Shown here piece after piece: positions 22,202-58,128 of a stretch of DNA of 64,000 nt. The position numbers and the translations under genes are program-made. Location of the stretch: positions 22,773,070 to 22,837,069 of the forward strand of contig NC_092671.1 in the NCBI RefSeq assembly GCF_964355755.1, written 5' to 3'. The notes beneath the pieces are model-generated. The model was not told where the DNA came from. It saw nothing but the letters and a program-made list of their open reading frames with translations, and did no database searches. Each line of letters starts with the position of its first letter. Positions within the stretch are counted from its first letter, which is position 1. This stretch comes from Antedon mediterranea (lineage: Eukaryota > Echinodermata > Crinoidea > Comatulida > Antedonidae).

Positions 22202-22319
22202 CTACAGCAAACGTCCTCTGCAGTCCACAGATCCACAATAACAATATAGTGTCTTGTTTGCTACACTGCCAACTTCATATCCATAATCCCAAGTAAGTTC
22301 AGTTCCTGCTCGTATGTTT
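22202..22319 (-). CDS. SETDB1: SETDB1-like H3K9 methyltransferase, terminal exon (end of SET and post-SET)
   Basis: This is the terminal coding exon on the minus strand. The acceptor AG lies at 22321-22320 after a T-rich stretch, and the exon supplies one base to complete a Gln codon. It then encodes [25 protein letters not shown] and [13 protein letters not shown] followed by TAG (22204-22202). ELTWDYGYE is the conserved SET segment lining the active site and lysine channel. CYCGSVDC is the post-SET zinc-binding CxCx4C cluster, and RGRLL is the usual SETDB1 C-terminus. The length after the SET core equals that of known SETDB1 proteins, so the C-terminus looks complete. WDYGYE resembles SETDB2, where human SETDB1 has WDYNYE, but the CRGRLL ending is SETDB1-like. 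The preceding intron is about 24.4 kb and holds the macrosatellite. Confidence 0.93.
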
Positions 22320-22507
22320 CTATGAAACAAAACACAACATATTTAATGGATTTGAAATTTGTCATTTTGAAACTTGAAAAAAAAAAATGGCACTAAACTT
22401 GTTTTAACCCAGCAACTTAATTTCAACTGGCCATATGCTGATGTCACAACATCCGATAGCAAACATTCTTACATTAATTCATATCTAAAATTCAACAGCT
22501 AAGGTTT

Positions 22508-22822
22508 AAGGCCCATTCACACTAGGACGATAAAATAGAAGATAAATATGCATTTTTCCTACATAAAACAAAGCAAAAAGTTTCATAAAAAAACTATAGG
22601 ATAGCCATCTATGCTGCCATTTTTGAAAATAATGTTTTCACACATCCAATCAAATGATAATTAGTTAGAGAATTTTTTGATTTTATTAAATATGACATCA
22701 TTTGATTTGAATTTAAAAATATCATTTTCAGCGTAAGTGGTTATACTATTTTCTAGAAACTTTCAAATTTCTTTTGTTTCATGTAAGAAAAATGTATGTT
22801 TATCCAGTGTGTCGCAACCTTA
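22508..22822. mobile_element. MITE with GGCCC ends, copy 2
   Basis: Diverged relative of the element at 12936-13290. It shares AGGCCCATTCACACTAGGAC, GATAAATATGCATTTTT, AACTATAGGATA, a central CCAATCAAATGA with its inverse, and a mirrored end CCAGTGTGTCGCAACCTT. It lies in the last SETDB1 intron just upstream (in transcript sense) of the terminal exon. Confidence 0.7.
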
Positions 22823-22889
22823 AATCATAAGGGTCACTTTTCATTCTGAAGAGCTGTATAAATGAAATCACCACCCGAAAGGGGACAAA

Positions 22890-23268
22890 TTGCCAACTTT
22901 TCTAGATCAGGATAGGAAGCGTTTTCGAGATATAAGGGGTCAAAGTTCAAAATTGACCAATTGTCAAAGTCATTTTCCAGCAATATCATCTGTTACACTG
23001 AATATAAATGTATATCTTGGGAACAATTTGCTCATATTTTTAATTCTCTCCGACCTGCCGTTACTTAGATATAGCGAAAAGAGGTCAAAGGTCAAAATTG
23101 CTAAAAATGGGTTTTTCGGTCAATTTTACAAAGAAAGTTCTGTTAGAGCTAATATAAATATATACATTGTGAAAAATTTGACACCAAAATTATCTCACTA
23201 TACGTCCAGTATTTCCAGAGATATACCATGTTTTATAAAAAAAATAACGTATTTTTGAACTTTTTCAT
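22890..23268 (+). repeat. DR1-motif repeat, about 155-bp units
   Basis: Diverged tandem units with GGTCAAAGTTCAAAA, AGAGGTCAAAGGTCAAAATT and ACTGAATATAAATGTATA. They belong to the family at 38.1-40.5, 42.4, 43.6 and 60.8-61.4 kb. The macrosatellite starts directly after it. Confidence 0.75.
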
Positions 23269-23269
23269 C

Positions 23270-26200
23270 AAAAACGCGCGCAAATTGTTCAATTCGACGT
23301 GCTCGTATGACGTGATTTTAAGTCGAAATTGTTTAAAAGTTGATAAAATTACTAAAAAAAAAGGCTAGAAAAACATAAATCACGCGAAGAAAATATGTTT
23401 TTAACGCTACATGCGCACCGCGCACGTAAACATTTGCGGGCACGTGGGAATTTTTGACATGCTCAAAATGTCATGATCAGCGTAGAAAGTTGATTAGAAA
23501 TTAATTTTGCGCATTTTAAAACTTTAAATGCGCGTGCGCGCGTAACTTCTTGTAAAACATGCCATTTTTAATCCACAAAAAGTTTCCTCTTGATATGACT
23601 TAAACTTTCACAAAGTGTCAATTAAAAATCACTTTTAGTTTTTAATCTATGATCAATCATAAAGAATCATAAAATCGCGCGTAAGTCACCTTAAGCAACT
23701 CTGACGTCTTTCAAAAATAGGAGGTGACCAACTTCAGGTAAATGTCCACATGTTGTCAAAGTTATGAAATGTTATGTTTACACATTTTAGAGAAACGCGC
23801 TGCACAAAAATAGCGAGAAAGAAAGAAGAATAATACAGGAAAAAAAAATATTGATCCCATACAATAACAAGGAGTTATCCGCCAAGTGCGGATAACTAAC
23901 TAGACATGAAACTCGTCACTTTGACGAGTTAGTTATTCGCACGACAAACGTCACGTGCACGTCATACGTTGGAATATTGCACAGAGAAAAAGATTATGGC
24001 ATTATGACCTGAACTGAAGAATATGATATTTTGTTAGTGCTGAATTCTGTCAATTTTGTGTCATATAGTATATACAGTATAATATGTATACATACATACA
24101 GTGTAAAATAAGTGAAATTATGGGACCTCCCATTTATTGCAATTTTTAACATGTTGACGGTTTTAAAATGAAACGCTAAGGTAGCAATTTCGGGAGGAAA
24201 TTATCTCAGCAACAACATATTAACGTGTAGAAGAAATTTGAATACGTGAAATATTGATGCGTGCTCTTTTAAATGTAATGAACTATTACGCAAAAAAAGA
24301 AAATATGACTTTTTTATTTAACTGGCCATATGATGACGTCACATCATTAGATTGGCAAAATTTTCACATGAAAAAACATAAATCACGCGAAAAAATAATG
24401 TTTTTAATGCTACGTGCAAGTAAAAATGTGCGCACGCATGGGAATTTTTTACATGCTCAAAATGACATGAAACGCGTAGAAAGTTGATTAGAAATTGATT
24501 TTTCGCATTGTAAAATTTTAAACGCGCGTGCGCGCGTAACTTCGTGTAAAACATGCCATTTTTAGTGCACAAAAAGTTAGCGCACGATATAAATTAGACT
24601 TTTGCTAAGTTTCAATTTAAATCGTTATATGGTTTTCGATCTATGTTAAATACGCGAAATTCATAAAAACGCGCGTAAGTCATGTTGCGCAACTCTGACG
24701 TCATTCAATTATAGGAAACCACAACCTCACGTGATTGCCCATATGTTGACAAAGTTATAAAATGTTAACTTTACACGTTTTAGAGATACGCTCTGCACAA
24801 AAATGACAGAAAGAAAGAAGAACTAGATTTGAACTCGTCACTTTGACGAGTTCGGGTTATCCGCGCATACGCAACATGCACATACTTTAAAGTATATGAA
24901 CCTCGACAATTATTATGCCATCCTTTGACATGAAATAAATATGTTTACAGTGCTGAATTGTACCTATTTTGTAGCATACATCATATTACAGTATTTACAG
25001 AATACACTGTATATGTTATATACAGTGTAGCATAGACGGAATTACGAGACCCATCATTTAAATCCAATTACTAAAACGATGACATCATCAAATTGACATA
25101 TAAAATAACAATTTTAGAAGATAATTATCTAATTAATTACATTAAAACAAATTTGAAGAATTTTGGGCACGTAAAAGTGAGATGCGGTCTCGTTTAAACG
25201 CAATGAACTTTTAAGCAAGAGGTGAAAATACGACTTTTTTTATTCAATTGGCCATATGATGACGTCACAACATCTGATTGGCAAAATGTTCACATGATTT
25301 CGTATCTACAATCCAATAGCTCCCAGAAAACGCTTTAATCATGATTATCACTTTTTATTCTGACGAGATATAACAGATTAAAATTTACTGTAAAGATGAA
25401 AAAATTGACCCACGTTATTTACATTTTTAGACATGATGACGTCATAAAAATTAAAATATTTTTAACTCCTGCGAAAGATAGTTGATTGACGTAGACAATA
25501 TTGAAATCTCGGGGAGAAATGGAATACGTATAAGCGAGATGCGCTCTGTTGAATGTGATGAGAAATAACGAAAGAGACAAAAATCCTATATTTTACATTC
25601 GTGTGGCCATACGATGATGTCATAACATCCGAGAGGTAAACATTCTGCATGAATTCATATCTACAATTTATCTTCTTGCATAATAAGTTAAAATTGGGGG
25701 TCACCTTCGATCCTGAAGAGCTATAATAGATTAAAAATAGGCATAATTTTGACAATATTTTGTAACTTTTTCAACTAAAACGCGCGCAAATGGTATAAAT
25801 CAACGTGTTCGTATGACGTCATTTAATTTCAAATGATGTCAATCTTTTTTAAAATGACTAGGAAAGGTTGGAAAATCATAATTCAAGAGAAAAAAACATG
25901 ATTTTCATGCTCCGTGCGCACCATACGCGTAAATTTGTTCGCGCGCGCAGGAATTTTTGACATGCTCAAAATGTCATGATCAGCGTAGAAAGTTGATTAG
26001 AAATTAATTTTGCACATTTTGAAACTTTAAATGCGCGTGCGCGCGTAACTTCTTGTGAAACATGCCATTTTTAATCCATAGAAAGTTTGCCCTTTATATG
26101 ACTTAAATTTTCACCAAGTGTCAATACAAAGTGACTTTTGGTTTATACTCTATGACCAATCATTGAAATTCATAAAATCGAGCGTAACTTACGCTACGCG

Positions 26201-26482
26201 ACTCTAACGTCATATAACAAAGTTTCCTGCACATCTACAGCTACAGGTCAATCTTATGACAAAGTTATACAATCTTATGTTGACATGGATGAGAGATATG
26301 CGTGCAACAAAATTCCGGGAAAGAAAGAAGAACAAAGAAGATGAAAAAAAGAAAGATATTTACAATAACAAGGGTTATCCGCAACTACTAAGTTGCGGAT
26401 AACCAAAAAAAAAAAAAAGATGATGAAACAGGACAGTTACAAGGAGTTATCCGCCATAGTGCGGATAACTAACTAGACATGT
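23270..26482 (+). repeat. macrosatellite, diverged leading units
   Basis: Diverged and partly rearranged copies of the 1.52-kb unit, with junction hairpins (stem AACTCGTCA, loop CTT) at 23910 and 24832. Hairpins GTTATCCGC/GCGGATAAC occur at about 23873, 26378 and 26445. Internal words include GCCATATGATGACGTCACA and GCGCGTGCGCGCGTAAC. Copies here differ by about 10-20 percent (visual estimate), so this end is older than the core array. Confidence 0.85.
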
Positions 26483-29400
26483 AACTCGTCACTTTGACGA
26501 GTTTGGTTATCCGCCGCGCAAGTGGTGCAACATTAACATTAAGGGGATAGGTTGAGGACAAAAGTAAGTGTTCACGTTGGAATTATGACCTGAACTGAAG
26601 AATATGATATGTTGTTATTGCTGAATTTTATATATAGTATACACAGTATAATCTCTATCCATATCACATACAGTGTAGAATAGGTGAAATTACGGTACCC
26701 ACTATTTATTGCAATTTTTAACATGTTGACGGTTTTAAAATGAAACGCGAAGGTAGCAATTCCGGAAGTAAATTATCTCAGCAACAACGTATTAGCGTGT
26801 AGAAGAAATTTGAACACGTAAAATATTGATGCGCGCTCTTTTAAATGTAATGAATTATGACGCAAAAGATGAAAATACGACCTTTTTTTTATTTAACTGG
26901 CCATATGATGACGTCACAACATCCGATTGGCAACATTTTTACATGATTTCGTATCTACAATCCAATAGCTTCCAGAAAACGTTTTAATCGTGATTATCAC
27001 ATTTTATTCTTACGAGCTATAACAGATTAAAATTTACTCTGAAGATGAAATTAATGCCACACGTAATTTAAATTTTTAGGCATGATGACGTCATAAAAAT
27101 AAAATTATTTTTAACTCATGCGAAAGATGGTTGATTGACCTAGACAATATCACAATCGGGGTGAAAATGGAAAACGGATAAGTGGAGATGCGCTCTATTA
27201 AATGTGATGAGCTATGACGAAAGATACAAAAATCCTAAATTTTATATTTGCGTGGCCATACGATGACGTCACAATGTCCGGTTAGCTATATTAATACCTG
27301 ATCCGATATCTGCAACTCATCAACTTCCAGAATATATCATCCACAAAAAGTTAGAAATTACGACTGTTTAAAAAAAGGCATATTTTTAACAAATTTGTTA
27401 ACCTTTTCATCAAAAACGCGCGCAAATTGTCCAATTCGACGTGCTCGTATGACGTAACTTTAAGTCGAAATTGTTTAAAAGTTGGTAAAATTACTAGAAG
27501 AGACTGGAAAAACATAAATCACGCGAAAAAATAATGTTTTTAATGCTACGTGCGCACCGCACACGTAAACATTTGCGCACGCGTGGGAATTTTTGACATG
27601 CTTAAAACGACATGAAACGCGTAGAAAGTTGATTAGAAATTAGTTTTGCGTATTTTGAAATTTTAAATTCGCGTGCACGCGTAACTTTGTGTAAAACACG
27701 CAATTTTTTTTCAACGGAAAGTTAGCGCATGATATAAATTAAACTTTTGAAAAGTTTCAATTTGAAATCTCATTTGGTTTTCGACCGATGTTAAATACGA
27801 GAAAATCGTTAAATCGTGCGTAAGTCACGTTGCGCAATTGTAAACATCATGAAAAGCTTCGCTTGACGACGTTACATAAATGTCAAAATGTTAACATAGT
27901 TAACAAAATGTTATGTTTGCAAGTTTTAGAGAAAAGCGTTACACAAAAATCATACAGAAAGAAAGAAGATGAAAACTAGACATGTAACTCGTCACTTTGA
28001 CGAGTTTGGTTATCCGCCGCGCAAGTGGTGCAACATTAACATTAAGGGGATAGGTTGAGGACAAAAGGAAGTGTTCACGTTGGCATTATGACCTGAACTG
28101 AAGAATATGATATGTTGTTATTGCTGAATTTTATTATTTAAATTCATATATAGTATACACAGTATAATCTGTATCCATATCACATACAGTGTAGAATAGG
28201 TGAAATTACGGGACCCGCTATTTAATGCAATTTTTAACATGTTGACGGTTTTAAAATGAAACGCGAAGGTAGCAATTCCGAAAGGAAATTATCTCAGCAA
28301 CAACGTATTAGCGTGTAGAAGAAATTTGAATACGTGAAATATTGATGCGCGCTCTTTTAAATGTAATGAATTATGACGCAAAAGATGAAAATACGACCTT
28401 TTTTATATAACTGGCCATATGATGACGTCACAACATCCGATTGGCAACATTTTTACATAATTTCGTATCTACAATCCAATAGCTTCCAGAAAAAGTTTTA
28501 ATCGTGATTATCACATTTTATTCTTATGAGCTATAACAGATTAAAATTTACTGTAAAGATGAAATTGATGCCACACGTGATTTAAATTTTTAGGCATGAT
28601 GACGTCAAAAAAATTAAAATATTTTTAACTCCTGCGAAAGATACTTGATTGACCTAGACAATATCAAAATCTGGGTGAAAATGGAAAACGGATAAGTGGA
28701 GATGCGCCCTATTCAATGTGATGAGCTATGACGAAAGGTACAAAAATCCTAAATTTTATATTCGCGTGGCCATACGATGACGTCACAATGTCCGGTTAGC
28801 CATATTAATAACTGATCCGATATCTACAACTCATCTACTTCCAGAATATGCCATCCACAAAAAGTTGACCGTCTAGTTTAGAAATTACGACTGTTTAAAA
28901 AAAGGCATATTTTAAACAAATTTTTTAACCTTTTCTTAAAAAACGCGCGCAAATTGTCCAATTCGACGTGCTCGTATGACGTATCTTTAAGTCGAAATTG
29001 TTTAAACTTTGGTAAAATTACTAGAAAAGGCTGGAAAAATATAAATCACGCGAAAAAAATACGTTTTCAATGCTACGTGCGCACCGCACACGTAAAAATG
29101 TGCGCACGCGTGGGAATTTTTGACATGCTTAAAACGACATGAATCGCGTAGAAAGTTGATTATAAATTAATTTTGCGCATTTTGAAATTTTAAATGCGCG
29201 TGCGCGCGTAACTTTGTGTAAAACACGCAATTTTTTTTCAACAGAAAGTTAGCGCATAATATAAATTAAACTTTTGCAAAGTTTCAAGTTGAAATGTTAT
29301 TTGGTTGTCGAGCTATGTTAAATACGACAAAATCGTTAAATCGCGCGTAAGTCACGTTGCGCAATTGTAAACATCATGAAAAGCTTCGCTGCACATCTTC

Positions 29401-32400
29401 ATGTGCATGACGATATGTTGAGAAAGTTACAAAATGTTATGTTTGCAAGTTTTAGAGAAAAGCGATCCACAAAAATCATACAGAAAGAAAGAAGACAAAC
29501 TAGACATGTAACTCGTCACTTTGACGAGTTTGGTTATCCGCCGCGCAAGTGGTGCAACATTAACATTAAGGGGATAGGTTGAGGACAAAAGGAAGTGTTC
29601 ACGTTGGCATTATGACCTGAACTGAAGAATATGATATGTTGTTATTGCTGAATTTTATTATTTAAATTCATATATAGTATACACAGTATAATCTGTATCC
29701 ATATCACATACAGTGACATACATAGAATAGGCGAAATTACGGGACCCGTTATTTATTGCAATTTTTAACATGTTGACGGTTTTAAAATGAAACGCGAAGG
29801 TAGCAATTCCGAAAGGAAATTATCTCAGCAACAACGTATTAGCGTGTAGAAGAAATTTGAATACGTGAAATATTGATGCGCGCTCGTTTAAATGTAATGA
29901 ATTATGACGCAAAAGATGAAAATACGACCTTTTTTATTTTACTGGCCATATGATGACGTCACAACATCCGATTGGCAACATTTTTACATAATTTCGTATC
30001 TACAATCCAATAGCTTCCAGAAAAAATTTTAATCGTGATTATCACATTTTATTCTTACGAGCTATAACAGATTAAAATTTACTGTAAAGATGAAATTATT
30101 GCCACACGTGATTTCAATTTTTAGGCATGATGACGTCATAAAAATTAAAATATTTTTAATTCATGCGAAAGATAGTTGATTGACCTAGACAATATCAAAA
30201 TCGGGGTGAAAATGGAAAACGGATAAGTGGAGATGCGCTCTATTCAATGTGATGAGCTATGACGAAAGATACAAAAATCCTAAATTTTATATTCGCGTGG
30301 CCATACGATGACGTCACAATGTCCGGTTGGCCATATTAATACCTGACCCGATATCTACAACTCATCTACTTCCAGAATATGCCATCCACAAAAAGTTGAC
30401 CGTCTAGTTTAGAAATTACGACTGTTTAAAAAAAGGCATATTTTAAACGAATTTTTTAACCTTTTCATAAAAAACGCGCGCAAATTGTCCAATTCGACGT
30501 GCTTGTATGACGTCTCTTTAAGTCGAAATTGTTTAAAATTTGGTAAAATTACTTGCAAAGGCTGGAAAAACAGAAATCACGTGAAAAAAATACGTTTTCA
30601 ATGCTACGTGCGCACCGCACACGTAAAAATATGCGCACGCGTGGGAATTTTTGACATGCTTAAAACGACATGAAACGCGTAGAAAGTTGATTATAAATTA
30701 ATTTTGCGCATTTTGAAATTTTAAATGCGCGTGCGCGCGTAACTTTGTGTAAAACACGCAATTTTTTTCCAACAGAAAGTTAGCGCATGATATAAATTAA
30801 ACTTTTGCAAAGTTTCACTTTAAAATGTTGTTTCGTTTTTGACATATGTTAAATACGAGAAAATCGTTAAATCACGCGTACGTCACGTTGCGCAATTGTA
30901 AACATCATGAAAAGCTTCGCTTGACGACGTTACATAAATGTCAAAATGTTAACATAGTTAACAAAATGTTATGTTTGCAAGTTTTAGAGAAAAACGTGCC
31001 ACAAAAATCATACAGAAAGAAAGAAGAACTAGACATGTAACTCGTCACTTTGACGAGTTTGGTTATCCGCCGCGCAAGTGGTGCAACATTAACATTAAGG
31101 GGATAGGTTGAGGACAAAAGGAAGTGTTCACGTTGGCATTATGACCTGAACTGAAGAATATGATATGTTGTTATTGCTGAATTTTATTATTTAAATTCAT
31201 ATATAGTATACACAGTATAATCTGTATCCATATCACATACAGTGAAGAATAGGTGAAATTACGGGACCCGCTATTTATTGCAATTTTTAACATGTTGACG
31301 GTTTTAAAATGAAACGCGAAGGTAGCAATTCCGAAAGGAAATTATCTCAGCAACAACGTATTAGCGTGTAGAAGAAATTTGAATACGTGAAATATTGATG
31401 CGCGCTCTTTTAAATGTAATGAATTATGACGCAAAAGATGAAAATACGACCTTTTTTATTTAACTGGCCATATGATGACGTCACAACATCCGATTGGCAA
31501 CATTTTTACATAATTTCGTATCTACAATCCAATAGCTTCCAGAAAAAGTTTTAATCGTGATTATCACATTTTGTTCTTACGAGCTATAACAGATTAAAAT
31601 TTACTGTAAAGATGAAATTAATGCCACGCGTGATTTAAATTTTTAGGCACGATGACGTCAAAAAAATTAAAATATTTTTAACTCATGCGAAAGATAGTTG
31701 ATTGACCTAGACAATATCAAAATCGGGGTGAAAATGGAAAACGGATAAGTGGAGATGCGCTCTATTCAATGTGATGAGCTATGACGAAAGATACAAAAAT
31801 CCTAAATTTTATATTCGCGTGGCCATACAATGACGTCACAATGTCCGGTTAGCCATATTAATACCTGATCCAATATCTACAACTCATCTATTTCCAGAAT
31901 ATGCCATCCACAAAAAGTTGACCGTCTAGTTTAGAAATTACGACTGTTTAAAAAAAGGCATATTTTAAACGAATTTTTTAACCTTTTCATAAAAAACGCG
32001 CGCAAATTGTCCAATTCGACGTGCTCGTATGACGTATCTTTAAGTCGAAATTGTTTAAAATTTGGTAAAATTACTAGAAAAGGCTGGAAAAACATAAATT
32101 ACGCGAAAAAAATACGTTTTCAATGCTACGTGCGCACCGCACACGTAAAAATGTGCGCACGCGTGGGAATTTTTGACATGCTTAAAACGACATGAAACGC
32201 GTAGAAAGTTGATTATAAATTAATTTTGCGCATTTTGAAATTTTATATGCGCGTGCGCGCGTAACTTTGTGTAAAACACGCAATTTTTTTTCAACAGAAA
32301 GTTAGCGCATGATATAAATTAAACTTTTGCAAAGTTTCAAGTTGAAATGTTATTTGGTTGTCGAGCTATGTTAAATACGACAAAATCGTTAAATCACGCG

Positions 32401-34085
32401 TAAGTCACGTTGCGCAATTTTAAACATCATGAAAAGCTTCGCTGCACATCTTCATGTGCACGACGATATGTTGAGAAAGTTACAAAATGTTATGTTTGCA
32501 AGTTTTCGAGAAAAGCGTTCCACAAAAATCATACAGAAAGAAAGAAGAGAACTAGACATGTAACTCGTCAATTTGACGAGTTTGGTTATCCGCCGCGCAA
32601 GTGGTGCAACATAAACATTAAGAGGATAGGTTGAGGACAAAAGGAAGTGTTCACGTTGGCATTATGACCTGAACTGAAGAATATGATATGTTGTTATTGC
32701 TGAATTTTATTATTTAAATTCATATATAGTATACACAGTATCTGTATCCATATCACATACAGTGTAGAATAGGTGAAATTACGGGACCCGCTATTTATTG
32801 CAATTTTTAACATGTTGACGGTTTTAAAATGAAACGCGAAGGTAGCAATTCCGAAAGGAAATTATCTCAGCAACAACGTATTAGCGTGTAGAAGAAATTT
32901 GAATACGTGAAATATTGATGCGCACTCTTTTAAATGTAATGAATTATGACGCAAAAGATGAAAATACGACCTTTTTTGTTTAACTAGCCATATGATGACG
33001 TCACAACATCCGATTGGCAACATTTTTACATAATTTCGTATCTACAATCCAATAGCTTCCAGAAAAAGTTTTAATCGTGATTATCACATTTTATTCTTAC
33101 GAGCTATAACAGATTAAAATTTACTGTAAAGATGAAATTAATGCCACACGTGATTTAAATTTTTAGGCATGATGACGTCAAAAAAATTAAAATATTTTTA
33201 ACTCATGCGAAAGATACTTGATTTACCTAGACAATATCAAAATCGGGGTGAAAATGGAAAACGGATAAGTGGAGATGCGCTCTATTCAATGTGATGAGCT
33301 ATGACGAAAGATACAAAAATCCTAAATTTTATATTCGTGTGGCCATACGATGACGTCACAATGTCCAGTTAGCCATATTACTACCTGATTCGATATCTAC
33401 AACTCATCTACTTCCAGAATATGCCATCCACAAAAAGTTGACCGTCTAGTTTAGAAATTACGACTGTTTAAAAAAAGGCATATTTTAAACGAATTTTTTA
33501 ACCTTTTCATAAAAAACGCGCGCCAATTGTCCAATTCGACGTGCTCGTATGACGTATCTTTAAGTCGAAATTGTTTAAAATTTGGTAAAATTACTTGAAA
33601 AAGCTGGAACAACATAAATCACGCGAAAAAAATACGTTTTCAATGCTACGTGCGCACCGCACACGTAAAAATGTGCGCACGCGTGGGAATTTTTGACATG
33701 CTTAAAACGACATGAAACGCGTAGAAAGTTGATTATAAATTAATTTTGCGCATTTTGAAATTTTATATGCGCGTGCGCGCGTAACTTTGTGTAAAACACG
33801 CAATTTTTTTTCAACAGAAAGTTAGCGCATGATATAAATTAAACTTTTGCAAAGTTTCAAGTTGAAATGTTATTTGGTTGTCGAGCTATGTTAAATACGA
33901 CAAAATCGTTAAATCGCGCGTAGGTCACGTTGCGCAATTGTATATATCATGAAAAGCTTCGCTGCACATCTTCATGTGCATGACGATATGTTGAGAAAGT
34001 TACAAAATGTTATGTTTGCAAGTTTTCGAGAAAAGCGTTCCACAAAAATCATACAGAAAGAAAGAAGAGAAATAACTAGACATGT
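26483..34085 (+). repeat. macrosatellite core: five homogeneous tandem units of about 1.52 kb
   Basis: Unit starts, taken at the hairpin AACTCGTCA-CTT-TGACGAGTT, are at 26483, 27985, 29510, 31039, 32562 and 34086, giving periods of 1502, 1525, 1529, 1523 and 1524 bp. The units look nearly identical by eye. Each carries TTATCCGCCGCGCAAGTGG after the hairpin, four TGACGT-type motifs (mostly ATGATGACGTCA), a CG-rich palindromic stretch GCGCGTGCGCGCGTAAC, and an end AGAAAGAAAGAAG. Each unit contains two diverged halves of about 385 bp. No conserved protein is encoded. Confidence 0.95.
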
Positions 34086-46498: not shown

Positions 46499-46709
46499 AA
46501 TGTTACATACAAAACACAAATTTGGGTTTATTTAGATTTGAATAAAAAATTTGGACTCATTTTGTGACAAGTTTCTTTTTCGGAAGTAATTCCCCGGGTG
46601 CTAACACTAACATACGGTATGTACGTTTGAAATCGGGAGTTTTGTTACGCTGAAATGAAATTGTTGTCATTGGTAGTTATTTAATAAAACAATAAAATAT
46701 TTTACTTAC

Positions 46710-46798
46710 TGTCCTGCAAAAAATGCTAACCATGGAAAACGCAGATCATGAGTGTCAACAAAAACATTCTGAACAAATAAGTTAGGAACACAGCTATG
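46710..46798 (-). CDS. SETDB1: SETDB1-like H3K9 methyltransferase, penultimate exon (SET catalytic core)
   Basis: This 89-nt minus-strand exon has a strong pyrimidine tract and AG acceptor (46800-46799) and a consensus donor GTAAGT starting at 46709. It opens in phase 0 with HSCVPN and continues [17 protein letters not shown], then LAFFAG plus two bases of a split codon. This is the hallmark SETDB1 block around the S-adenosylmethionine-binding NHSC motif. The Asn of NHSC is the last codon of the exon at 58 kb, so an 11.2 kb intron splits the motif. The last two bases (CA) join the first base of the exon at 22 kb to make Gln, so the phases match exactly. Val at the position that is Ser in human HSCSPN is the only notable change in the core. 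No stop or frameshift is present, which argues for a functional gene and not a captured fragment. Confidence 0.93.
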
Positions 46799-47194
46799 CT
46801 AGAAAAAAAGAGGAAGAATCAATTTAATAATATTTAAAGTTTTGACGCTAAATGCATAGCCAAGTATTCAAGTATTTTGTAAAAATAATACATATATTAC
46901 TTTAAAACCATTAAACCAGGTCATTACTTGTCTTAAATGTACGTTTTATGGTAAATTATGATAAAAAGTGAGAAACAATGCACTACTTAAGTAGATTGCG
47001 GCGAATGACCTCTCGTGGACGGTCTTTAGGCCTAGCCTATAGCTATGCTTAGTTTTGTAGGCCTAGCTGGTAAACATCGCTAACGTACGAACATCGTACG
47101 CTAGCTATACACGTTGTATATTTGCTGCATTAATTGTCTATTTTTGAAAGACTCTGTTGATACAAATTGGGGAAAACCCGGTATTTTCGCTGAA

Positions 47195-47395
47195 GTCTTT
47201 TGTTTTGGCCTCACGATCGATCAAAAAGTGGGTGAATTACATAAGAAAAATAAAAATGTCAATCCACACAAAATGCATTTTGGGATTTATAGCGGGCCGC
47301 TATAATTATTAGAATCGACTTATTTTTCACATTTTTAACCATTTAAAGACGAAAAAAGTTATCGCACTAGGACAATATAGTATTATTTTTACATT
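47195..47395 (+). repeat. dispersed repeat D, copy 2
   Basis: Matches 20175-20360 (TTGTTTTGGCCTCACGATCG, TTTATAGCGGGC, AAAGACGAAAAAAGTTATCG), same strand. It lies in the SETDB1 intron, whereas copy 1 lies downstream of the gene. Confidence 0.75.
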
Positions 47396-47499
47396 AAATA
47401 GTTAGTGATCTTAAAATAGATCTAAAAAACGTAGGGAAGGTGTCTTTAAGGAATGATTGTATTAATCAAGTTTGATAGTTTTATAATTAAATGATAATT

Positions 47500-48130
47500 T
47501 AGAATAAAATGATCACCTATTGTTATTGTATGAAATCTTTATTATTATTATTCTTCCTTCTTCTTCTTCTTCTTCTTGTACACTATTTTGTGTAACAAAT
47601 ATCTCAAAAAGTTTAATGTCAATGATTACCAAAATTGTCTTTCAAATACTTTAACTTAGTCCTAATAAGCTTTTCAGTGTGATCACTAATCCATGACGTC
47701 ATTTATACGCCATTTTGTGAAATCACATTATCAATCATATATCCCTAATTCATTATCACATATTAATGAAATTTACTACACGTAAACTTCAGGTCAAGGG
47801 TAAAAATATTGGCAAATAAAAACTTGCGCGTTTCAAGGTCATACACATGAAATTGCGCGTTAAAAATTAAAAAAGCTCAAAATTAAGTTTTGATCAATTT
47901 AGAGCATGAATTAGGTCATTTGCGTGTTTAAAAAAATTACTGCGCAAAAACACGTTTTTCCGTCCGTGATTCTTATAAAACGTAAAGCTCAAGTAAACAA
48001 GTAAGTACCAGTAAAAATACATTTTTGTACAAATCGCCTTGTACTCATCATCCTTAGTACATTTATCAAATTTGAGTCCATTCCGACTTAAAATAACGCT
48101 ATACGAGCAGGTTAAAAATGACAAAACGGG
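47500..48130 (-). repeat. inverted copy of the 36880-37500 satellite-related block
   Basis: On the minus strand it reads the same words as 36880-37500 (TAACGTG-type hydrophobic text aside): ATAACGCTATACGAGC inverted, ATGACGTCATTTATACGCCA inverted, and the AGGTGATCATTTTATTCTAA half-hairpin with the leader at 47508-47545. A (CTT)n tract lies at 47550-47577. It faces the plus-strand satellite that starts at 48130. Confidence 0.82.
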
Positions 48131-51100
48131 CACATTAATTAATTAATCACGCGGAAAAAGTATGTTTTTTAACGCTACGTGCGCAAAGCGCGTAAAAAGT
48201 TGCGCGTGCATGGGAATTTTTGACATGCTCAAAATGACAAGAAAGTTGATTAGAAATGTTTTTTTTGCATTTTTAAATTTTAAAAGCGCGTGCGCGCGTA
48301 ACTTTGTGTAAAACATGTAATTTTTAGTGCACAAAAAGTTAGCGCAAGTTATAAATTAAACTTTTGCTAAGTTTCAATTTAAATTGTTATATGGTTTTCG
48401 ATCTATGTTAAATACGCAAAATTCATAAAATCGCGCGTAAGTCAAGTTGCGCCTTTCTGACGCCATTCACAATAGCAGGTGCACAACTTCACGTAAATGC
48501 CCACATGTTGACAAAGTTATAACATGTTAACTTTACACGTTTTAGAGATACGCTCTGAACAAAAATGACATAAAGAAAGAAGCACTAGACATGAAACTCG
48601 TCACTTTGACGAGTTAGTTATCCACACGACAAACGACACGCGCACGTCATACGTTGCAATTTTGCACACGGAAAAAGATTATGGCATTATGACCTGAACT
48701 GAAGAATATCATATGCTGTTATTGCTGAATTCTTTTAATTTTGTGTTATATAGTATATACAGTATAAACAGTATATTCTGTATACAATAAATACAGTGTA
48801 GAATAGGTGAAATTACGGGACCCACCATTTATTCCAATTTTTAACATGGCGACGGTTTCAAAATGAAACACTAAGGTAGCAATTTCTCAGCAACAACATA
48901 TTAATGTGTAGAAGAAATTGGAATACGTAAAATATAGATGCGCGCTCTTTTAAATGTGATTAACTATGACGCAAAATATGAAAATACGACTTTTTATATT
49001 CAACTGGCCATAAGATGACGTCAAAACATCTGATTGGCAAAATGTTCACATGAATTCGTATCTACAATCCAATAGCTTCCAGAAAACGTTTAATCATGAT
49101 TATCACTTTTTATTCTGACGAGCTATAACAAATTGAAGTTTACTATAATAAAGACATGATGACGTCATAAAAATTAAAATATTTATAACTCATGCGAAAG
49201 ATAGTGGATTGACCTAGACAGTATTCAAATATCTGAGGAAATGGAATACGTATAAGCGAGATGCGCTCTATTTAATGTGATGTGCAATAATGAAAGAGTA
49301 AAAAATCCTATATTTTACATTCGTGTGGCCATACGATGACGTCATAACATCCGAGGGGTAAAGATTCTGCATGAATTCATATCTACAACATATCTGCTTA
49401 AATATTAATTTAAACAAATTGGGGGGTCATGGATGATCCTGAGGAGCTATAATAGATTAAAAATAGGCATAATTTTGACAATATTTTTTCACTTTTGCAA
49501 CTAAAACACGCGCAAATGGTCTAAATCAACGTGTTCATATGACGTCATTTTAATTTGAAATGATGTCAATCTTTTTAGAAATGACTAGGAAAGGCTAGAA
49601 AATCACAATTCAATAGAAAAAACATGATTTTCGTACTTTGTGCGCACCATACGCGTAACATTTTTCGCGCACGCAGTAATTTTTGACATGCTCAAAATAT
49701 CATAAGCGTAGAAAGTTGATTAGAAATTAATTTTGGTCATTTTTAAACTTTAAATGCGCGTGCGCGCGTAACTTCTTGTAAAACATGCCATTTTTAATCC
49801 ATAGAAAGTTGACCCATGATATGAATTAAAATATTATTAAGTTTCATGAAACAATATTTGTTGGTTCTAAAGTTATGATCAGTTATAGAATTTCATAAAA
49901 TCCCACGTAACTTACGCAACACGGATCTGAAATCGTCCAAATACTTGGTTGCACATCTACACTTCAATGTCAATCTTTTTACCAAGTTATACAAAGTTAT
50001 GTTACTAAGCAATAGAGATATACTGGTCACAAAAATCCGGGAAAGAAAGAAGAACTAGACATGAAACTCGTCACTTTGACGAGTTAGTTATCCGCTCGAC
50101 AAACGCCACGTGCACGTCATACGTTGGAATTTTGCACACAGAAAAAGATTATGGCATTATTACCTGAACTGAAGAATATGATGTGTTGTTAGTGCTGAAT
50201 GCTGTATATTTTGTGTCATATAGAATACACAGTATAATCTATATACATATTGCACAAACAGTGTAAAATAGGTGAAATTACGGGACCCGTATTTTATTCC
50301 AATTTTTAACATGTTGACGGTTTCAAAATGAAACGCGAAGGTATTAATTTCGGAAGGAAATTATCTCAGCAACAACATATTAACGTTTAGAAGAAATTTG
50401 AATACGTGAAATATTGATGAGCACTCTATTAAATGTAATGAGCTATGACGCAAAAGATGAAAATACGACTTTGTTTATTTAACTGGCCATATGATGACAT
50501 CACAATATCTAATTGGCGAAAATTTACTGTAAAGATGAAATTAATGATCCTGTTAATTAACATTTTTAGGCATGATTATGTCATAAAAATTAAAATATTT
50601 GTAACTCATGCGTAAGATAGTTGATTGACCTAGACAATATTAAAATCTCGGAGAAAAAGAAATACAGATAAGCGTGATGCGCTCCATTGAATATGATGAG
50701 CAATAACGAAAGAGACAAAAATCCTATATTTTACATGCGTGTGGCCATACGATGACTTCACAATGTCCAGTTAGCCATATTGATTAATGATCCGATATCT
50801 ACAACTCATCAACTTCCAGAATATGTAATTTAAAAAAATTCACCTCGTTTTTTAGAATCTATGACATAATTTTGATGAATTTTAAAACTTTTTCAATAAA
50901 AACGCGCGCAAATTGTACAATTTGACGTGCTCGTATGACGTAATTTTAAGTCGAAATTGTTTAAAAATTTGTAAAATTACTTTAAAAGGCTGGAAAAATA
51001 AAATTCACGCAAAAAAAAATATTTTTAGCTGTACGTGCACACCGCGTATAAAATTGTTCGCGTGCGTAGGAATTTCTGACAGGCTCAAATTGTCATGATC

Positions 51101-52227
51101 ATCGTAGAAAGTTGATTAGAAATTAATTTTGTGCACTTTGAAATTTTAAATGCGTGTGCACGCGTAACTTCTTGTAAAACATGTAATTTTTAATCCACAA
51201 AAAGTTTGCCCTTGATATGACTTAAATTTTCACAAAGTGTAAAAAAAAAATTACATGTAACTCGTCACTTTGACGAGTTAGTTATCCGCAGGACAAATGC
51301 CACGTGCACGTCATACGTTGCGTTAGAATATTGCACACAGAAAAAGATTATGGCATTATGACCTGAACTGAAAAATATGATATGTTGTTAGTGCTGATTT
51401 CTGTCAATTTTGTGTCATATAGTATATATAGTATAATATGTATACATATTACATACAGTGTAGAATAAGTGAAATTATGGGACCTGCCATATATTGCAAT
51501 TTTTAACATGTTGACGGTTTTAAAATGAAACGCGAAGGTAGCAATTTCGGAAGGCAATTATCTCAGCAACAACATATTAACGTGTAGAAGAAATTTGAAT
51601 ACGTGAAATATTGATGCGCGCTCTTTTAAATGTAATGACGCAAAAGATGAAAATACGACATTTTTTATTTTACTGGCCATATGATGACGTCAAAACATCC
51701 GATTGGCAAAATTTTCACATGATTTCGTTTTTCAAAAAAGTTTTAATCGTGATTACGAGCTATAAGAGATTAAAATTTACTGTAAAGATGAAATTAATGC
51801 CACACGTAATTGAAATTTTTAGGCATGATGACATCATAAACATTAATTAATTAATTATTTTTTGACATGCTTAAAACGTCATGAAAGTTGGGCATCTTGA
51901 AATTTTAAATGCGTGTGCACGCGTATCTTTGTGTAAAACACGCAATTTTTTTCTACAGAAAGTTAGCGCATAATATAAATTAAACTTTTGCAAAGTTTCA
52001 ATTTGAAATGTTATTTGGTTTTCGACCTATGTTAAATACGAGAAAATCGTTAAATTGCGCTTAAGTCACGTTGCGCAATTGTAAACGTCATGAAAAGCTT
52101 CGCTTGACGACATTACGTAAATATCAATGTTAAGATAGTTAACAAAATGTTATGTTTGCAACTTTTAGAGAAAAGCGTTGCACAAAAATCATACAGAAAG
52201 AAGATCAAGAAAAAGATGATGATGATG
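48130..52227 (+). repeat. macrosatellite, second block (diverged, with deletions)
   Basis: Three hairpin-marked units (AACTCGTCA hairpins at 48595, 50065 and 51258) with periods of 1470 and 1193 bp. Internal deletions lie near 50520 and 51230, and the last unit is cut short at 51855. The end AGAAAGAAGATCAAGAAAAA passes into (GATGAT)n, where the 5.5-kb element inserted. Confidence 0.88.
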
Positions 52228-52899
52228 AGGCCTAAAAAAAAAAATTGTTTGTTTGCTGTCAAGTTTTTTTTTTTTGGTAGGGGAGGCGGGTGGAAAAAAG
52301 TTTTTTTTTTTTTATTTATTTATTTTTTTTAAAATTAATTTTTGTTAATTTCTCTGTTAATTGTACGCGAATTTGAGAGTAAGAAAACACACTGAATAAA
52401 ACAACGAGCTCAAACATCTATTCATAATTTTTTTCACACTTTAATTCTGTTTTGGGCACGTTAGGCCCCGTGTCTAAACTAGCCTAGGCTAGGCCTACTA
52501 CACAGTAGGTCGTTGTTAGCAGGCCTAATTAAATATTTTAGAAGTTGGTGTACCGTATATTTCGGTGTATAAGTCGCACCTGTGTATAAGACGCACCCCC
52601 TAACTGAGAGTAAAATATCGGTATTTTGTATATCGTCGATGTATAAGACGGCCGCGCCCAGCCTCAACAAGAAGGGAAGTCCCCCATTCCGTCAGTTCTT
52701 TCTAACTTGTTATTCATGAGTTTCGCACCCGCAACATCGAGTGCATGACCGCACGTGTGTGTGGGCTAGCCTCGCTCGATCCTTTTATCGAGAGCTCACG
52801 TTTTCACGGACAATCGTATTCGATTAGTATCTATGTATCCTAGAAGTATCTATGTATCCTAACCCTAACCCTATGCTATAATCAACTGGAGAGGTTCTA

Positions 52900-54080
52900 C
52901 AGTAGGACACCTACCCCCTAGACAGTTACTCCCCGGATGTTTACCACCCGGACAACTACTTCCCGGACAACTACTTCCCGGACAACTACTTCCCGGACAA
53001 CTACTCCCGGACAACTATCCCCCCGGACAACTACCCCCCGGACAACTACCCCCCGGACAACTACCCCCCGGACAACTACCCCCCGGACAACTACCCCCGG
53101 ACAACTACCCCCCCGGACAACTACCCCCCCCGGACAACTACCCCCCGGACAACTACCCCCCGGACAACTACCCCCCCCCCCCGGACAACTATTACCCCGG
53201 ACAACTACCCCCCCCCCCCTCCCCGGACAACTCCCCCCCCCCTCGGACAACTCCCCCCCCTCGGACAACTCCCCCCCCTCGGACAACTCCCCCCCCCCCC
53301 ACTCGGACAACTACCCCCCGGACAACACTAATCCCCGGACAACACTAATCCCCGGACAACACTACCCCCGGAGAAAACTACCCCCGGAGAAAACTACGCC
53401 CCGGAGAAAACTACCCCCCGGAGAAAACTATCCCCCGGAGAAAACTATCCCCCGGAGAAAACTATCCCCCGGAGAAAACTATGCCCCCGGAGAAAACTAT
53501 GCCCCCGGAGAAAACTATGCCCCAGACAACTATGCCCCAGACAACTATGCCCCAGACAACTATGCCCCAGACAACTATGCCCCAGACAACTATGCCCCAG
53601 ACAACTATGCCCCAGACAACTACCCCCGGGACAACTTAATCCCCGGGACAACTTAATCCCCGGACAACTACCCCCTTAGGACAACTACCCCCTTAGGACA
53701 ACTACCCCCTTAGGACAACTACCCCCTTAGGACAACTACCCCCTTAGGACAACTACCCCCTTAGGACAACTACCCCCTTAGGACAACTACCCCCTTAGGA
53801 CAACTACCCCCTTAGGACAACTACCCCTTAGGACAACTACCCCCTTAGGACAACTACCCCCTTAGGACAACTACCCCCTTAGGACAACTACCCCCTTAGG
53901 ACAACTACCCCCTTAGGACAACTACCCCCTTAGGACAACTACCCCTTAGGACAACTACCCCCTTAGGACAACTACCCCCTTAGGACAACTACCCCCTTAG
54001 GACAACTACCCCCGGTCAACTAACCCCGGTCAACTACCCCCTCTCTTAGGACAAACACCCCCATGACAACTACTACCCCC
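52900..54080. repeat. GGACAACTACCCCC minisatellite, forward array (about 1.2 kb)
   Basis: Roughly 65 tandem units with sub-blocks of different variants: ACTTCCCGGACA, CTACCCCCCGGACAA, GAGAAAACTACCCCCCG, ACTATGCCCCAGACA and, most homogeneously, CAACTACCCCCTTAGGA (about 20 copies, 53655-54005). The apparent 239-codon frame across it is a translation of the repeat. Confidence 0.95.
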
Positions 54081-54153
54081 CCCCCCCCCAAATCCAAAAG
54101 TAGACAAATATATAGGACCGGTTTCTGTAAAAATGAAATCATCCGTTTTTAAC

Positions 54154-54537
54154 GGGTGTTTCGAAGAGAGACCCGAGACCAGAGACCTGACACGAGACCC
54201 AATACGAAAAGGGAGACCTATATTTGGGTCTCCCTTTTCGTATATTAGGGTCTCCCTTTTCGTATAGTGTGGTCTCTCTTTTCGTATAGTGGGGTCTCCC
54301 TTTTCTTATAGTGGGTCTCCCTTTTCGTATATTTGGGTCTCCCATTTTGTATATTTGGGTCTCCCTTTCCGTATATTTAGGTCTCCCTTTTCGTATATTT
54401 AGGTCTCCCTTTTTGTATATTAGGGTCTCCCTTTTCGTATAGTGGGATCTCCCTTTTCGTATAGTGGGATCTCCCTTTTCGTATAGTGGGGTCTCCCTTT
54501 TCGTATTGGGTCTCGGGTCTCTAGTTTCGAAACACCC
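54154..54537. mobile_element. small foldback with GGGTGTTTCGAA ends and GGTCTCCCTTTTCGTATA repeats
   Basis: GGGTGTTTCGAA with GAGACCCGAGACC (54154-54180) is inverted at 54510-54537. The flanks are GTTTTTAAC (54145-54153) and GTTTTAACC (54538-54546), a nearly exact 9-bp duplication. The body is about fourteen tandem copies of GGTCTCCCTTTTCGTATA with spacers. The GGGTGT ends resemble those of the element at 5969-7046 (GGGTGTCACGAA), suggesting one superfamily. Confidence 0.8.
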
Positions 54538-54598
54538 GTTTTAACCGATTATTCTGTTTAACAGCACGCTAGACCCTAGATGTGCTAGATTTAAAGTA

Positions 54599-55130
54599 CC
54601 GTATTTATTGAAAAAACGGCCTGGGCTGTTTATTGTTCAGGTGGTTTTTAGGTGGACATTTATTGGAAGAAAGTTGTTTATTCGATGGGAGGGGGTATAA
54701 TCTAATGGAAATAGACGTCGATTATTCCGTATGATGTTTCATGGGAGTGACATGGTCACCGTTTATTTGAGGGGAATTTATTTAAAGATCGCCGTTTATT
54801 CGGTGAGTGAACATTGAGGTCAAATATCAAAAGTGATATTATTCATCAAGTGTAAAAAATACATATATGACAAATTTGAGACAAATATTAATTCTTTTAA
54901 GACCAGTGGTTATCGAAGCATTGTCCTGACGCAAAAATTATGTCAACAATCAAAGGTAGCATTTCATGTCATTTTTTATGAAACATTTTTATTGAAGTAC
55001 ATAGAAACATTGATATTTTGAACAATATGAGACCAACATTAAATTCCTACAGACATAGAAAGAATAAAAAGGTCAAAATGTCAAATATGATATTTCCAGC
55101 CATATTTAAAGACTAAGTTTCATTAGAGGT
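54599..55130. repeat. CCGTATTTATT end and diverged DR1 units
   Basis: TA followed by CCGTATTTATTGAAAAAACG starts an element end rich in TTTATTG and CGTTTATT words, related to 60335-60445 and 39075-39140. After about 54815 come diverged DR1 units (GAGGTCAAATATCAAA, AAGACCAGTGGTTATCGAAG). The right partner end was not found. Confidence 0.55.
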
Positions 55131-55254
55131 AATAATCCAGATGATCCCATTTTCGGGACTTTTTTTTTTATACCAAGTGCGAAAAGTATTTTAACAATCA
55201 AAATGATACTGACTTAAAAACAAAGTATAAAAAGGTATGTTGAAGGCTACTAAC

Positions 55255-56039
55255 TACTAGGGGGCTTGGGGGTAATTTTCAGGGGGTTATTGTTCCTAGG
55301 GGGTAATTGTCCGGGGGTTAGTTGTCCAGTGGTTAGTTGTCCTACGGAGGTAGTTGTCCTAAAAGATTATTTGCCCTCGTAGTATTGTCCAGGTCAAGGA
55401 GGTAGTTGTCCTACGGGGAGTAGTATTGTGTCAGAGGTAGTTGTCCGGGGGGTTATTTACCCGGGGGGGGGGGGCGGGTAAATTGTCTGGTTGTCGAATG
55501 GTCCGTCCGCGGGGGGTAGTTGTTCTAAAGGGATAGTTGCCTGGGTGATAGTTGTCCAGGGGTTAGTTGTCCTACGGAGGTCGTTGTCCTGAAACATTAT
55601 TTGCCCTCGGAGTATTGTCCAGGTCCAGAGGTAGTTGTCCGCTGGGTAATTACCAGGGGGCGGGGGGCTAATTGTCCGGTTGTCGAATGGTCTGGGTGGT
55701 AGTTGTCCGTCCGGGGGGTAGTTGTTCTAAAGGGATAGTTGCCTGGGTGGTAGTTGTCCATCCAGGGGTTAGTTGTTCTACGGAGGTAGTTGTCCTGAAA
55801 CATTATTTTCCCTCGGAGTATTGTCCAGGTCCAGAGGTAGTTGTCCGCGGGGTAATTACCAGGGGGGGGGGGGGGTAATTGTCCGGAGAGCTGGGTAATT
55901 TTCAGGGGGTAATTGTCCGGGGGAAATTGTCCGGGGGGAATTGTCCGGGGGGGTAGTTGTCCAGGGGTTAGTTGTCCTACGGAGGTAGTTGTCTTAAAAG
56001 ATTATTTGCCCTCGTAGTATTGTCCAGGTCCAGGAGGTA
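55255..56039. repeat. GGGGGTAGTTGTCC minisatellite, inverted array part 1
   Basis: The same minisatellite as 52900-54080 in the opposite orientation, with longer, more degenerate units and a higher-order period near 250-300 bp (for example CTACGGAGGTAGTTGTCCT with TATTTGCCCTCG and AGTATTGTCCAGGTC at 55340, 55570, 55780 and 55975). Confidence 0.9.
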
Positions 56040-56943
56040 CCGTATTTTCCGGAGTATAGGTCGACCCCAAGTATAAGTCGACCCCCAACTTTGGCCTAGA
56101 ATATCGTTGATTTTGGTATGACCTGAATATAAGTCGACCCCCAAAATCGGCTAATAACACAACTTACTTTAAAGTTCAAAGAGGGCTAGAAATGTATGAA
56201 ATGTGGTTATTTGTTTATATTATTAAAGTGTAGGCCTAATCAATATCGGACAGACGTAATGACGACGACTTCGCCGCCGTCTTCACCAGCCTATAATAAA
56301 TGACAGCGATGTAGCGTTACTTGCCATCAGCGATGTTTTTCGCGTCATTCGAATAAATTAAAACGAGTTTTCCGTTAGGAGGCTTATTAATTGTACAGGC
56401 GAGTAGTTGTAAATCGCGTTATCTGTAAATGTACACGCGCCCGACTAAGGAGAATTTATTTTATGAATAGACATGCGCAGTAATTGTAATTACGAACAAA
56501 CAAACAAACTGCGCATGTGTATAGATGAAAATATCGCGCAATAACAAACATGCTGCATGGACATTCCGACGTCTGTGGTGTGTGTTACGATGTTTTCGCG
56601 AGAGTGAATAAGAAGCATAAATAAAACTATTTATTCTTAATTATCTTAAAAGCGTAATATTAACATCAAAATGAGTCATTGTGATATATTAATATTTTAT
56701 TGACCAGTACTTGTTGGAGTTGTATTATTTTGTACAATGTAGGTATTAAATTGAAAACTTCTGTGAGTGATTGATGATAGGCCACTGACCTTGCTGGGCC
56801 TTGCTTGACAGCTGACGGCTTTTGAACATATTTTTTCGGCCTGATTTTTTTCAAAAATCGCATGGTCGGAGTATAAGTCGACCCCTCGATTTTGCAATTA
56901 AAATTTTCCCGCAAAATCTCGACCTATACTCCGGAAAATACGG
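56040..56943. mobile_element. 904-bp element with CCGTATTTTCCGG ends and exact TA duplication
   Basis: CCGTATTTTCCGGAGTATA at 56040 is inverted at 56925-56943, and TA flanks both sides (56038-56039, 56944-56945). Removing the element and one TA gives GGAGGTAGTTGTCCTACGGG, present uninterrupted at about 55397-55416, so an empty site is visible in the window. Subterminal GTCGACCCC words recur. No transposase; a non-autonomous TA-targeting element. Confidence 0.88.
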
Positions 56944-56945
56944 TA

Positions 56946-57165
56946 GTTGTCCTACGGGGAGTATTGTGTCAGAGGTAGTTGTCCGCGGGGTAATTACAGG
57001 GGGGTGGGGGTAATTGTCCGGGGGTAATTGTTTCTAGGGGGTAATTGTCCGGAGGTAGTTATCCAGGGGGTAGTTGTCCTAAGGGGGTAGTTGTCCAGGT
57101 GGTGGTTGTCCGGGGGTAGTTTTCCGGGGGGGGGGGGGGAATGTCCAGAGGGTTAATATCCGGAT
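56946..57165. repeat. GGGGGTAGTTGTCC minisatellite, inverted array part 2
   Basis: Continuation of the inverted array after the 904-bp insertion, ending in a G-run before AATGTCCAGAGGG. Confidence 0.9.
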
Positions 57166-57742
57166 ACGACTAGAGAATATACTAGTCGAATACTGTGTAC
57201 ACAATGTGGTTGCCAAGCTTGAAGGGCTCGCTCGCGCTGGGGGTACGACGGTCGTGCGTATAACTATAATACTATTCCAATCGTAAACGTTTACAAATGA
57301 AATTTTATCGGAGCGCCTAAAACAGCTCCATAATGAACAAATCTTTTCATCATATTTAGTACAAAATCACGCTAAAATGCCTTGAAAACTAGCAGGTTGC
57401 TGTTACGCTGGTACACTGTAGCTAGGCTACGCCTACTCTTTCAACTTTAGTAATACTAATAGGCCTAGGCCTTACCTTAAAAAGCCCAGGCCTAGCCAAC
57501 GAGGTGGCGATATCTGTGTGTTGAGGCATTTATGTTCGGTGTATAAGACGCACCCTTAATTTAGAGGTTAAATTTGCGTGTCAAAAGTGCGATTATACAC
57601 CGAAATATACGCTACGTTATTTTTTTTTTTTTTTAAGCGCCCTCAACGAAAAAAAAAACTTTTTCTTATCTCCGCCCCAAATTTTTTGCGAAATTAGGGG
57701 CGGCGGATGACAGCAAACAGACTATTTTTTTTTTTTGGCCTG

Positions 57743-57895
57743 ATGATGATGATGATGATGATTTTGTACAATTACAAGAGGTTATCCGCCAAGTGCGGAT
57801 AACCAATAATAATAATAATATAGATTTAATACAATAACAACAGGTGATCATTTTATTCTAAATGATCACCTAATAAATGATCACCTAATTACTCT
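57743..57895. repeat. hairpin modules of both types side by side
   Basis: (GATGAT)n, the leader TTTTGTACAATTACAAG and the hairpin GGTTATCCGC-CAAGT-GCGGATAACC (57780-57804) come first. Then TTTAATACAATAACAACA and the hairpin AGGTGATCATTT-TATTCT-AAATGATCACCT (57842-57871), with an extra half copy to 57888. This is the only place where full copies of both stem types stand next to each other. Confidence 0.92.
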
Positions 57896-58015
57896 AAAAC
57901 TAGTTATTACAGAAATTATTTTAAAAATGCAAAAACATGAAATCTGCTGATTATGTTAATTTCTAAATAGTCATCAGATCACGTAACATTTTCTACTTCA
58001 ATTAAAATTTCTTAC
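57896..58015. other. intronic spacer downstream of the SETDB1 exon
   Basis: Unique AT-rich intron sequence adjoining the donor site. Confidence 0.5.
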
Positions 58016-58128
58016 ATTAAAGTAACGACCTAGATTTCCTTCTTTTTTGGCATCCATCACATAGCAGTGTTCTTCTCTAAACAAACTTCGGGTTCTTGAA
58101 AAACTTTGTTTTTCATCAACTTCATAGT
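58016..58128 (-). CDS. SETDB1: SETDB1-like H3K9 methyltransferase, internal exon (SET domain, second half)
   Basis: This is a 113-nt internal exon read on the minus strand. It is preceded by a T-rich tract and AG (58130-58129) and followed by the donor GTAAGA (from 58015). It enters with two bases of a split codon and gives 37 residues ending in CYVMDAKKEGNLGRYFN. That matches the start of the C-terminal half of the bifurcated SET domain in SETDB1, where vertebrate proteins read CYIIDAKLEGNLGRYLN. The enzyme family trimethylates histone H3 lysine 9 in the nucleus. The exon ends in phase 0 after the Asn of the NHSC motif, and the next exon begins with HSC. The first 20 residues (acidic, then RTRS) fit the variable linker that interrupts the SET domain. 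Upstream exons (Tudor, MBD, pre-SET, first SET half) were not found and probably lie beyond 64 kb. SETDB2 is the alternative; DAK and the CRGRLL end in the last exon favour SETDB1. Confidence 0.88.

Follow-up and report, generated by a model that had tools for sequence, protein, structure and literature searches.

The window, a stretch of 64,000 nucleotides from Antedon mediterranea, carries the 3' exons of a SETDB1 gene (E1, E2 and E3; Table 1). All three lie on the minus strand, which was unstated in the earlier note. They measure 113, 89 and 118 nt respectively, each is preceded by an AG acceptor, the donors are GTAAGA (E1) and GTAAGT (E2), and E3 ends in a TAG stop. Splice-site and phase reading confirmed the three exons, consensus splice sites and matching phases (0 for E1/E2 and 2+1 for E2/E3) described earlier, the fit being exact. 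The 105-aa product of the joined exons was matched to the Pfam SET profile over positions 46-105 of 105 (E 7e-14), as expected from the previous assignment to the C-terminal SET half and post-SET, and, among the best 60 of 101 solved chains matched, those at the top are the H3K9 methyltransferases EHMT2, SUVH6, SUVH4, EHMT1 and SUV39H2.

Beyond the window, the DNA examined extended for 240 kb on the upstream side and for 20 kb on the downstream side, and human SETDB1 pieces were used as queries for the upstream exons. Coordinates are window-based throughout, values beyond 64000 lying outside the window. Eight further exons were located upstream, in the expected order and on one strand with E1-E3, giving 11 located exons with 2,116 bp of exon over 265,379 bp (the gene thus measuring 265 kb or more) and inter-exon gaps of 5.5 to 51.8 kb, a range that counts three gaps with a hidden exon. 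The span of about 36 kb reported in the earlier note is correct for E1-E3; as the extent of the SET region it was rejected, since exons continue upstream of the window and these 36 kb are only the 3' tail of the gene.

The phases fit at seven of seven junctions between exons able to be neighbours, five of them independent of the choices of insA and insB. These two exons were selected not by homology but as open minus-strand frames that are rich in serine and acidic residues and whose splice sites fit; of the two donors possible for insB, the one that fits E1 was taken. The junctions Tudor-MBD, MBD-MBD/pre-SET and SET-insA showed no direct fit, indicating that at least one exon is missing at each. 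The located exons contain no stops or frameshifts. Pfam matches were obtained for Tudor_4 (7.5e-15), Pre-SET (1.3e-16), MBD (4e-6 over profile positions 3-43 of 77) and SET, the last in two pieces (1-43 and 43-105), which lie on different exons and are separated by the serine- and acid-rich ones; the first SET piece scored 19 bits (E 0.002), under the family cut-off of 22.4. Neither the first Tudor nor the start codon was found in the 16 kb upstream of the Tudor exon. This domain set upholds the original description as a SETDB1-type gene, and the locus is accordingly SETDB1 with a bifurcated SET domain as read from its sequence, H3K9 methyltransferase activity being predicted.

Table 1. Features of the SETDB1 locus in window-based coordinates.
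Feature	Position	Strand	Basis or remarks
SETDB1 exon, Tudor	287580-287460	-	search with human SETDB1; Pfam
SETDB1 exon, MBD	235637-235462	-	search with human SETDB1; Pfam
SETDB1 exon, MBD/pre-SET	229997-229705	-	search with human SETDB1; Pfam
SETDB1 exon, pre-SET	216833-216712	-	search with human SETDB1; Pfam
SETDB1 exon, pre-SET	178849-178745	-	search with human SETDB1; Pfam
SETDB1 exon, first half of SET	157949-157807	-	search with human SETDB1; Pfam
SETDB1 exon insA, probable SET insert	129322-128853	-	open frame, position, phase, composition
SETDB1 exon insB, probable SET insert	106153-105788	-	open frame, position, phase, composition
Partial unit copy, intron insB-E1	61403-62647	-	
SETDB1 exon E1, end of SET insert and start of second SET half (...GNLGRYFN)	58016..58128	-	splice sites, phase, Pfam SET
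Intron E1-E2, 11,217 bp	46799..58015	-	35% 1.52-kb unit, 21% TRF tandem repeat
22-bp tandem repeat, 13 copies, between 30-nt inverted arms	54219..54506	+	
Minisatellite GGACAACTACCCCC, ~71 copies, intron E1-E2	52905-54041	+	inverted versions at 55268-57131
Diverged unit copies, intron E1-E2	48142-52202	-	
SETDB1 exon E2	46710..46798	-	splice sites, phase 0 / 2, tblastn 79% to human SETDB1
Intron E2-E3, 24,390 bp	22320..46709	-	54% 1.52-kb unit
Reverse-transcriptase fragment (RVT_1), intron E2-E3	44425..44823	+	Pfam
Second hairpin GGTGATCATTT...AAATGATCACC, two copies	40541..40631		inferred assignment
Partial unit copies	36112-38048	-	
Hairpin array, four stacked left ends (subterminal inverted-repeat hairpin and ATC-type microsatellite)	35649-35944	-	70-74-bp unit, ~4 times
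Six head-to-tail HINE-like units, 1503-1529 bp	26471-35602	- (element 5'-to-3' strand = gene strand)	sequence comparison of units
Diverged or rearranged unit copies	23251-26331	-	
SETDB1 last exon E3, end of SET and post-SET	22202..22319	-	splice sites, phase, Pfam SET, tblastn

Intron size relative to other SET loci

A SET search of the genome (354 Mb, 18 contigs) returned 17 matches at 15 loci. None falls in SETDB1, the exons of which are too short to score singly, so that this search cannot count SETDB1 genes. The domain lies in one open frame at four loci (contig C2 at 6.61 Mb, C9 at 21.9, C4 at 11.77 and C3 at 7.38, the last as two pieces in a single frame), is split by 404 bp at a fifth (C3 at 0.42), and at a sixth (C2 at 3.99) has positions 1-75 inside 510 bp with 13 stops, indicating an intron-bearing or decayed locus. 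At all six of these judgeable loci (of 15) the domain thus occupies a single open frame or is divided within ~0.5 kb; the other nine are partial, uninformative on intron length and may have large introns. The gaps within the SETDB1 SET region (28.5, 22.7, 47.7, 11.2 and 24.4 kb) are very large against this limited yardstick of six loci, and SETDB1 therefore seems unusually swollen.

Repeat content of the introns

The most conspicuous tandem array in the window consists of six units of about 1.52 kb, five of which share 93.7-98.0% identity, the sixth being ~83% identical to the rest. Across 22202-287580 the unit totals 44,301 bp in both orientations, sense-like in the window and mostly reversed upstream, and its share per intron ranges from 54% (E2-E3) down to none (two other introns). 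It is absent from the 42 kb downstream of the gene and accounts for 986 bp of the 16 kb above the Tudor exon, and may accumulate preferentially inside SETDB1. At 44.3 kb of 265 kb the unit is only part of the intron filling. Region-repeated sequence (100 bp or more) makes up 36-85% of each intron, and retrotransposon-like frames are frequent by eye; Pfam on six such frames of the window gave RVT_1 twice and Peptidase_A17 once. The introns had been described as packed with satellite, foldbacks and hairpin arrays: the tandem array and a hairpin array exist, and what had been called a macrosatellite is to all appearance an arrayed transposon that supplies part of the filling.

Several other repeats were recorded nearby. 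The minisatellite GGACAACTACCCCC also occurs in the downstream flank (11731-11899 and 17462-17616), in both orientations, and its presence there as well as in intron E1-E2 (52905-54041 and 55265-57131) indicates that it is not gene-specific. An open reverse-transcriptase frame of 433 aa (1847-3148, minus strand; RVT_1 1e-32) lies downstream of the gene and is probably a fairly recent LINE-type element. The insB-E1 intron contains a tandem duplication of 5,228 bp at 99.98% identity (62650-67877 and 67876-73103), which is either very recent or an assembly duplicate.

Structure and dispersal of the 1.52-kb unit

A genome search with the unit gave 74 matches on at least eight contigs, many of them 95-98% identical, a count that is a lower bound as 21 of 2478 first-look candidates were scored. 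Eight loci were examined. L006 (C5 at 7.21 Mb) has a lone unit, its flanks being free of any further copy of at least 150 bp, L004 (C7 at 17.82 Mb) holds a complete unit and one separate piece, and the other six have neighbouring copies. A classical locus-specific macrosatellite was rejected, as the unit is dispersed and occurs singly.

The element was read on the strand that corresponds to gene sense in the window's introns. Its left end, delimited in L004 and L006, consists of the hairpin GGTTATCCGCAAC-GAA-GTTGCAGGATAACC, an (ATC)n microsatellite and TCTTCTTTCTTTC, followed by the body; its right end consists of GCGGATAACC, the palindrome AACTCGTCA-AAG-TGACGAGTT and then ACATGTCTAG. In short, the ends are a GGTTATCCGC hairpin and a 3' palindrome followed by CTAG. 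Compared with shuffled sequences, the left hairpin folds with a z of -6.0 and the 3' palindrome with a z of -4.9. The stretch 26471-35602 contains no open frame that reaches 120 aa. Searches for curated structured RNAs (Rfam, gathering threshold) and for tRNAs gave 0 each, and both were rejected. For the HINE trait of insertion at a TT or T-rich target without duplication, one copy, L006, offers clean flanks.

In two reports, the layout of HINEs comprises a left module of 5' subTIR, complementary inverted repeat and microsatellite, and a right module of 3' subTIR and palindrome (PMC7492417, PMC4067079). The unit has the left module, the right module (the GCGGATAACC inverted repeat, then the AACTCGTCAAAGTGACGAGTT 3' palindrome) and no coding capacity. 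The Pacific oyster element Cg_HINE (PMC7492417) and the Drosophila element DINE-1 (PMC4067079) resemble the unit in the left hairpin formed by a subterminal inverted repeat and its complementary repeat, the microsatellite, the right subterminal inverted repeat, the 3' palindrome, the tandem repeats, the want of a long frame and the dispersal in short arrays. Two differences were noted: unlike the oyster elements, the unit is a 1.52-kb repeat with the right end in every copy, the oyster survey having filtered for central repeats of 100-500 bp (PMC7492417), and unlike both Cg_HINE and DINE-1 it has the 3' end CTAG, as in canonical Helitrons, with the CTRR of which it is consistent. Judged by its sequence organisation, the former macrosatellite looks like a tandemly arrayed non-autonomous rolling-circle element of HINE/Helentron-like layout.

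The same family accounts for the hairpin array, which is composed of left ends of the 1.52-kb element; the second hairpin probably represents left ends of a related element. Over the 324-kb region the left hairpin was counted at 12 places, the 3' end at 20 and the second hairpin GGTGATCATTTAGAATAAAATGATCACC at 16, with 0 each in three block shuffles. Genome-wide, 87 Helitron_like_N matches were found, many of them in open frames near 3,100 aa, so that a source of transposase exists, as a candidate partner only. Helitron_like_N matches cluster at C8 (0.80-0.94 Mb), C1 (14.5 and 23.05-23.17 Mb), C4 (19.88-20.02 Mb) and C3 (20.30-20.36 Mb), many of them in open frames of ~1,600-3,200 aa, with a spacing of ~20-45 kb, as would be expected if arrays were formed by large autonomous elements too.

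At the five junctions among the six window units, the filler from CTAG to TCTTC is different in every case (1-7 bases). Purely unequal crossing-over from one junction is doubted, as all five fillers differ, and slippage in the pyrimidine run could be an alternative source of the differences. At one junction in L008, CTAG is joined perfectly to TCTTC, the form that would be expected from a rolling-circle concatemer. What appear in one locus as a satellite, a hairpin array and part of the foldbacks can thus be modules of one rolling-circle transposon family.

Interpretation

The locus is most probably one large SETDB1 gene, with introns that have been enlarged by transposons and are transcribed through, and with no dedicated silencing circuit. 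Rolling-circle elements would insert and form tandem copies, and the introns would grow by HINE/Helentron-type arrays, minisatellites and retrotransposon pieces, the arrays being present because the element is genome-dispersed and presumably tolerated in introns. We infer that polymerase would read through the arrays and that the exons would be spliced, as in other gigantic genes, and any H3K9me3 on the arrays would reflect the usual silencing of repeats of this kind and not a dedicated circuit. The gigantic genes of the Drosophila Y likewise have very long introns which hold satellite DNA and are transcribed through and spliced (PMC11207136); they differ in exceeding megabases and in being testis genes, whereas SETDB1 encodes a chromatin enzyme and, as read from sequence, occupies 265 kb or more.

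The alternative raised by the earlier note is a feedback sensor, in which H3K9me3 laid down by SETDB1 on the intronic arrays alters SETDB1 elongation, splicing or premature polyadenylation, so that the gene would gauge silencing capacity by the repeats it contains itself. The arrays do sit in catalytic-domain introns, and in the unit consensus AATAAA occurs four times, always on the strand that is gene-sense within the introns of the window. However, over the nine introns AATAAA is balanced (467 sense, 487 antisense), the orientation of the unit within the gene is mixed, and the repeat, with copies on at least eight contigs, is not specific to SETDB1. The satellite had been taken for a special partner of SETDB1, a role not supported for a dispersed family that includes single copies with discrete ends, and without such a partner the feedback loop has no sequence-specific support. 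A self-silencing loop at SETDB1 is possible; as the explanation of this locus, a sensor is improbable.

That heterochromatin can act on a gene encoding an H3K9 enzyme is not new in principle, and counts in favour of a sensor. In plants, the H3K9 demethylase gene IBM1 has a heterochromatic intron, and in fission yeast mutants heterochromatin forms on clr4+ (PMC11265718 and PMC4395908 respectively). IBM1 of flowering plants is like SETDB1 here in encoding an H3K9-modifying enzyme and in having repeats in a long intron in the region coding for the catalytic domain; it is unlike it in being a demethylase with measured intron methylation and isoform switching, SETDB1 being a writer known here from its sequence (PMC11265718). 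In the clr4+ epimutation, H3K9 methylation acts back on its own methyltransferase gene, as in the SETDB1 sensor idea, although this was seen in double mutants of mst2 and epe1 and requires sequence lying 3' to clr4+ rather than repeats in introns (PMC4395908). Among the open-licence papers listed, judged by title and abstract opening, none described regulation of SETDB1 by repeats in its introns.

It is similarly doubtful that the locus is a decaying or silent duplicate with a working SETDB1 elsewhere. The located exons are open with fitting phases, Tudor, MBD, Pre-SET and SET all score, and the apparent zinc- and SAM-binding motifs are retained. The exons are moreover depleted in CpG, with an observed/expected ratio of 0.43 over the 11 exons (28 CpG in all, exon ends approximate) and all 11 below expected, against 0.98 in the nine introns and 1.82 in the unit consensus, a contrast drawn for SETDB1 alone and to which coding bias may contribute. 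In invertebrates such depletion accompanies germline gene-body methylation of expressed genes. Least likely of all is that faulty assembly accounts for the great length of the introns: the 5,228-bp duplication could be an uncollapsed haplotype or a misassembly, but across 265 kb the eleven exons remain in order and on one strand, the examined region contains no N, and the introns hold many different repeats and not one expanded array.

One large SETDB1 gene enlarged by transposons, with introns far longer than in the judgeable SET loci of the same genome, provides a concrete, testable case of a silencing enzyme with repeats laden in its own gene. There is a slim chance that it represents an animal H3K9 methyltransferase gene in which transposon arrays serve as a heterochromatin sensor, SETDB1 marking the arrays and the mark setting the level of full-length SETDB1; if true, plant IBM1 would have a convergent animal counterpart, assembled from elements of the Helentron type. 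The locus would either show how transcription passes through repeats of the kind that SETDB1 is thought to silence, or reveal a dosage sensor.
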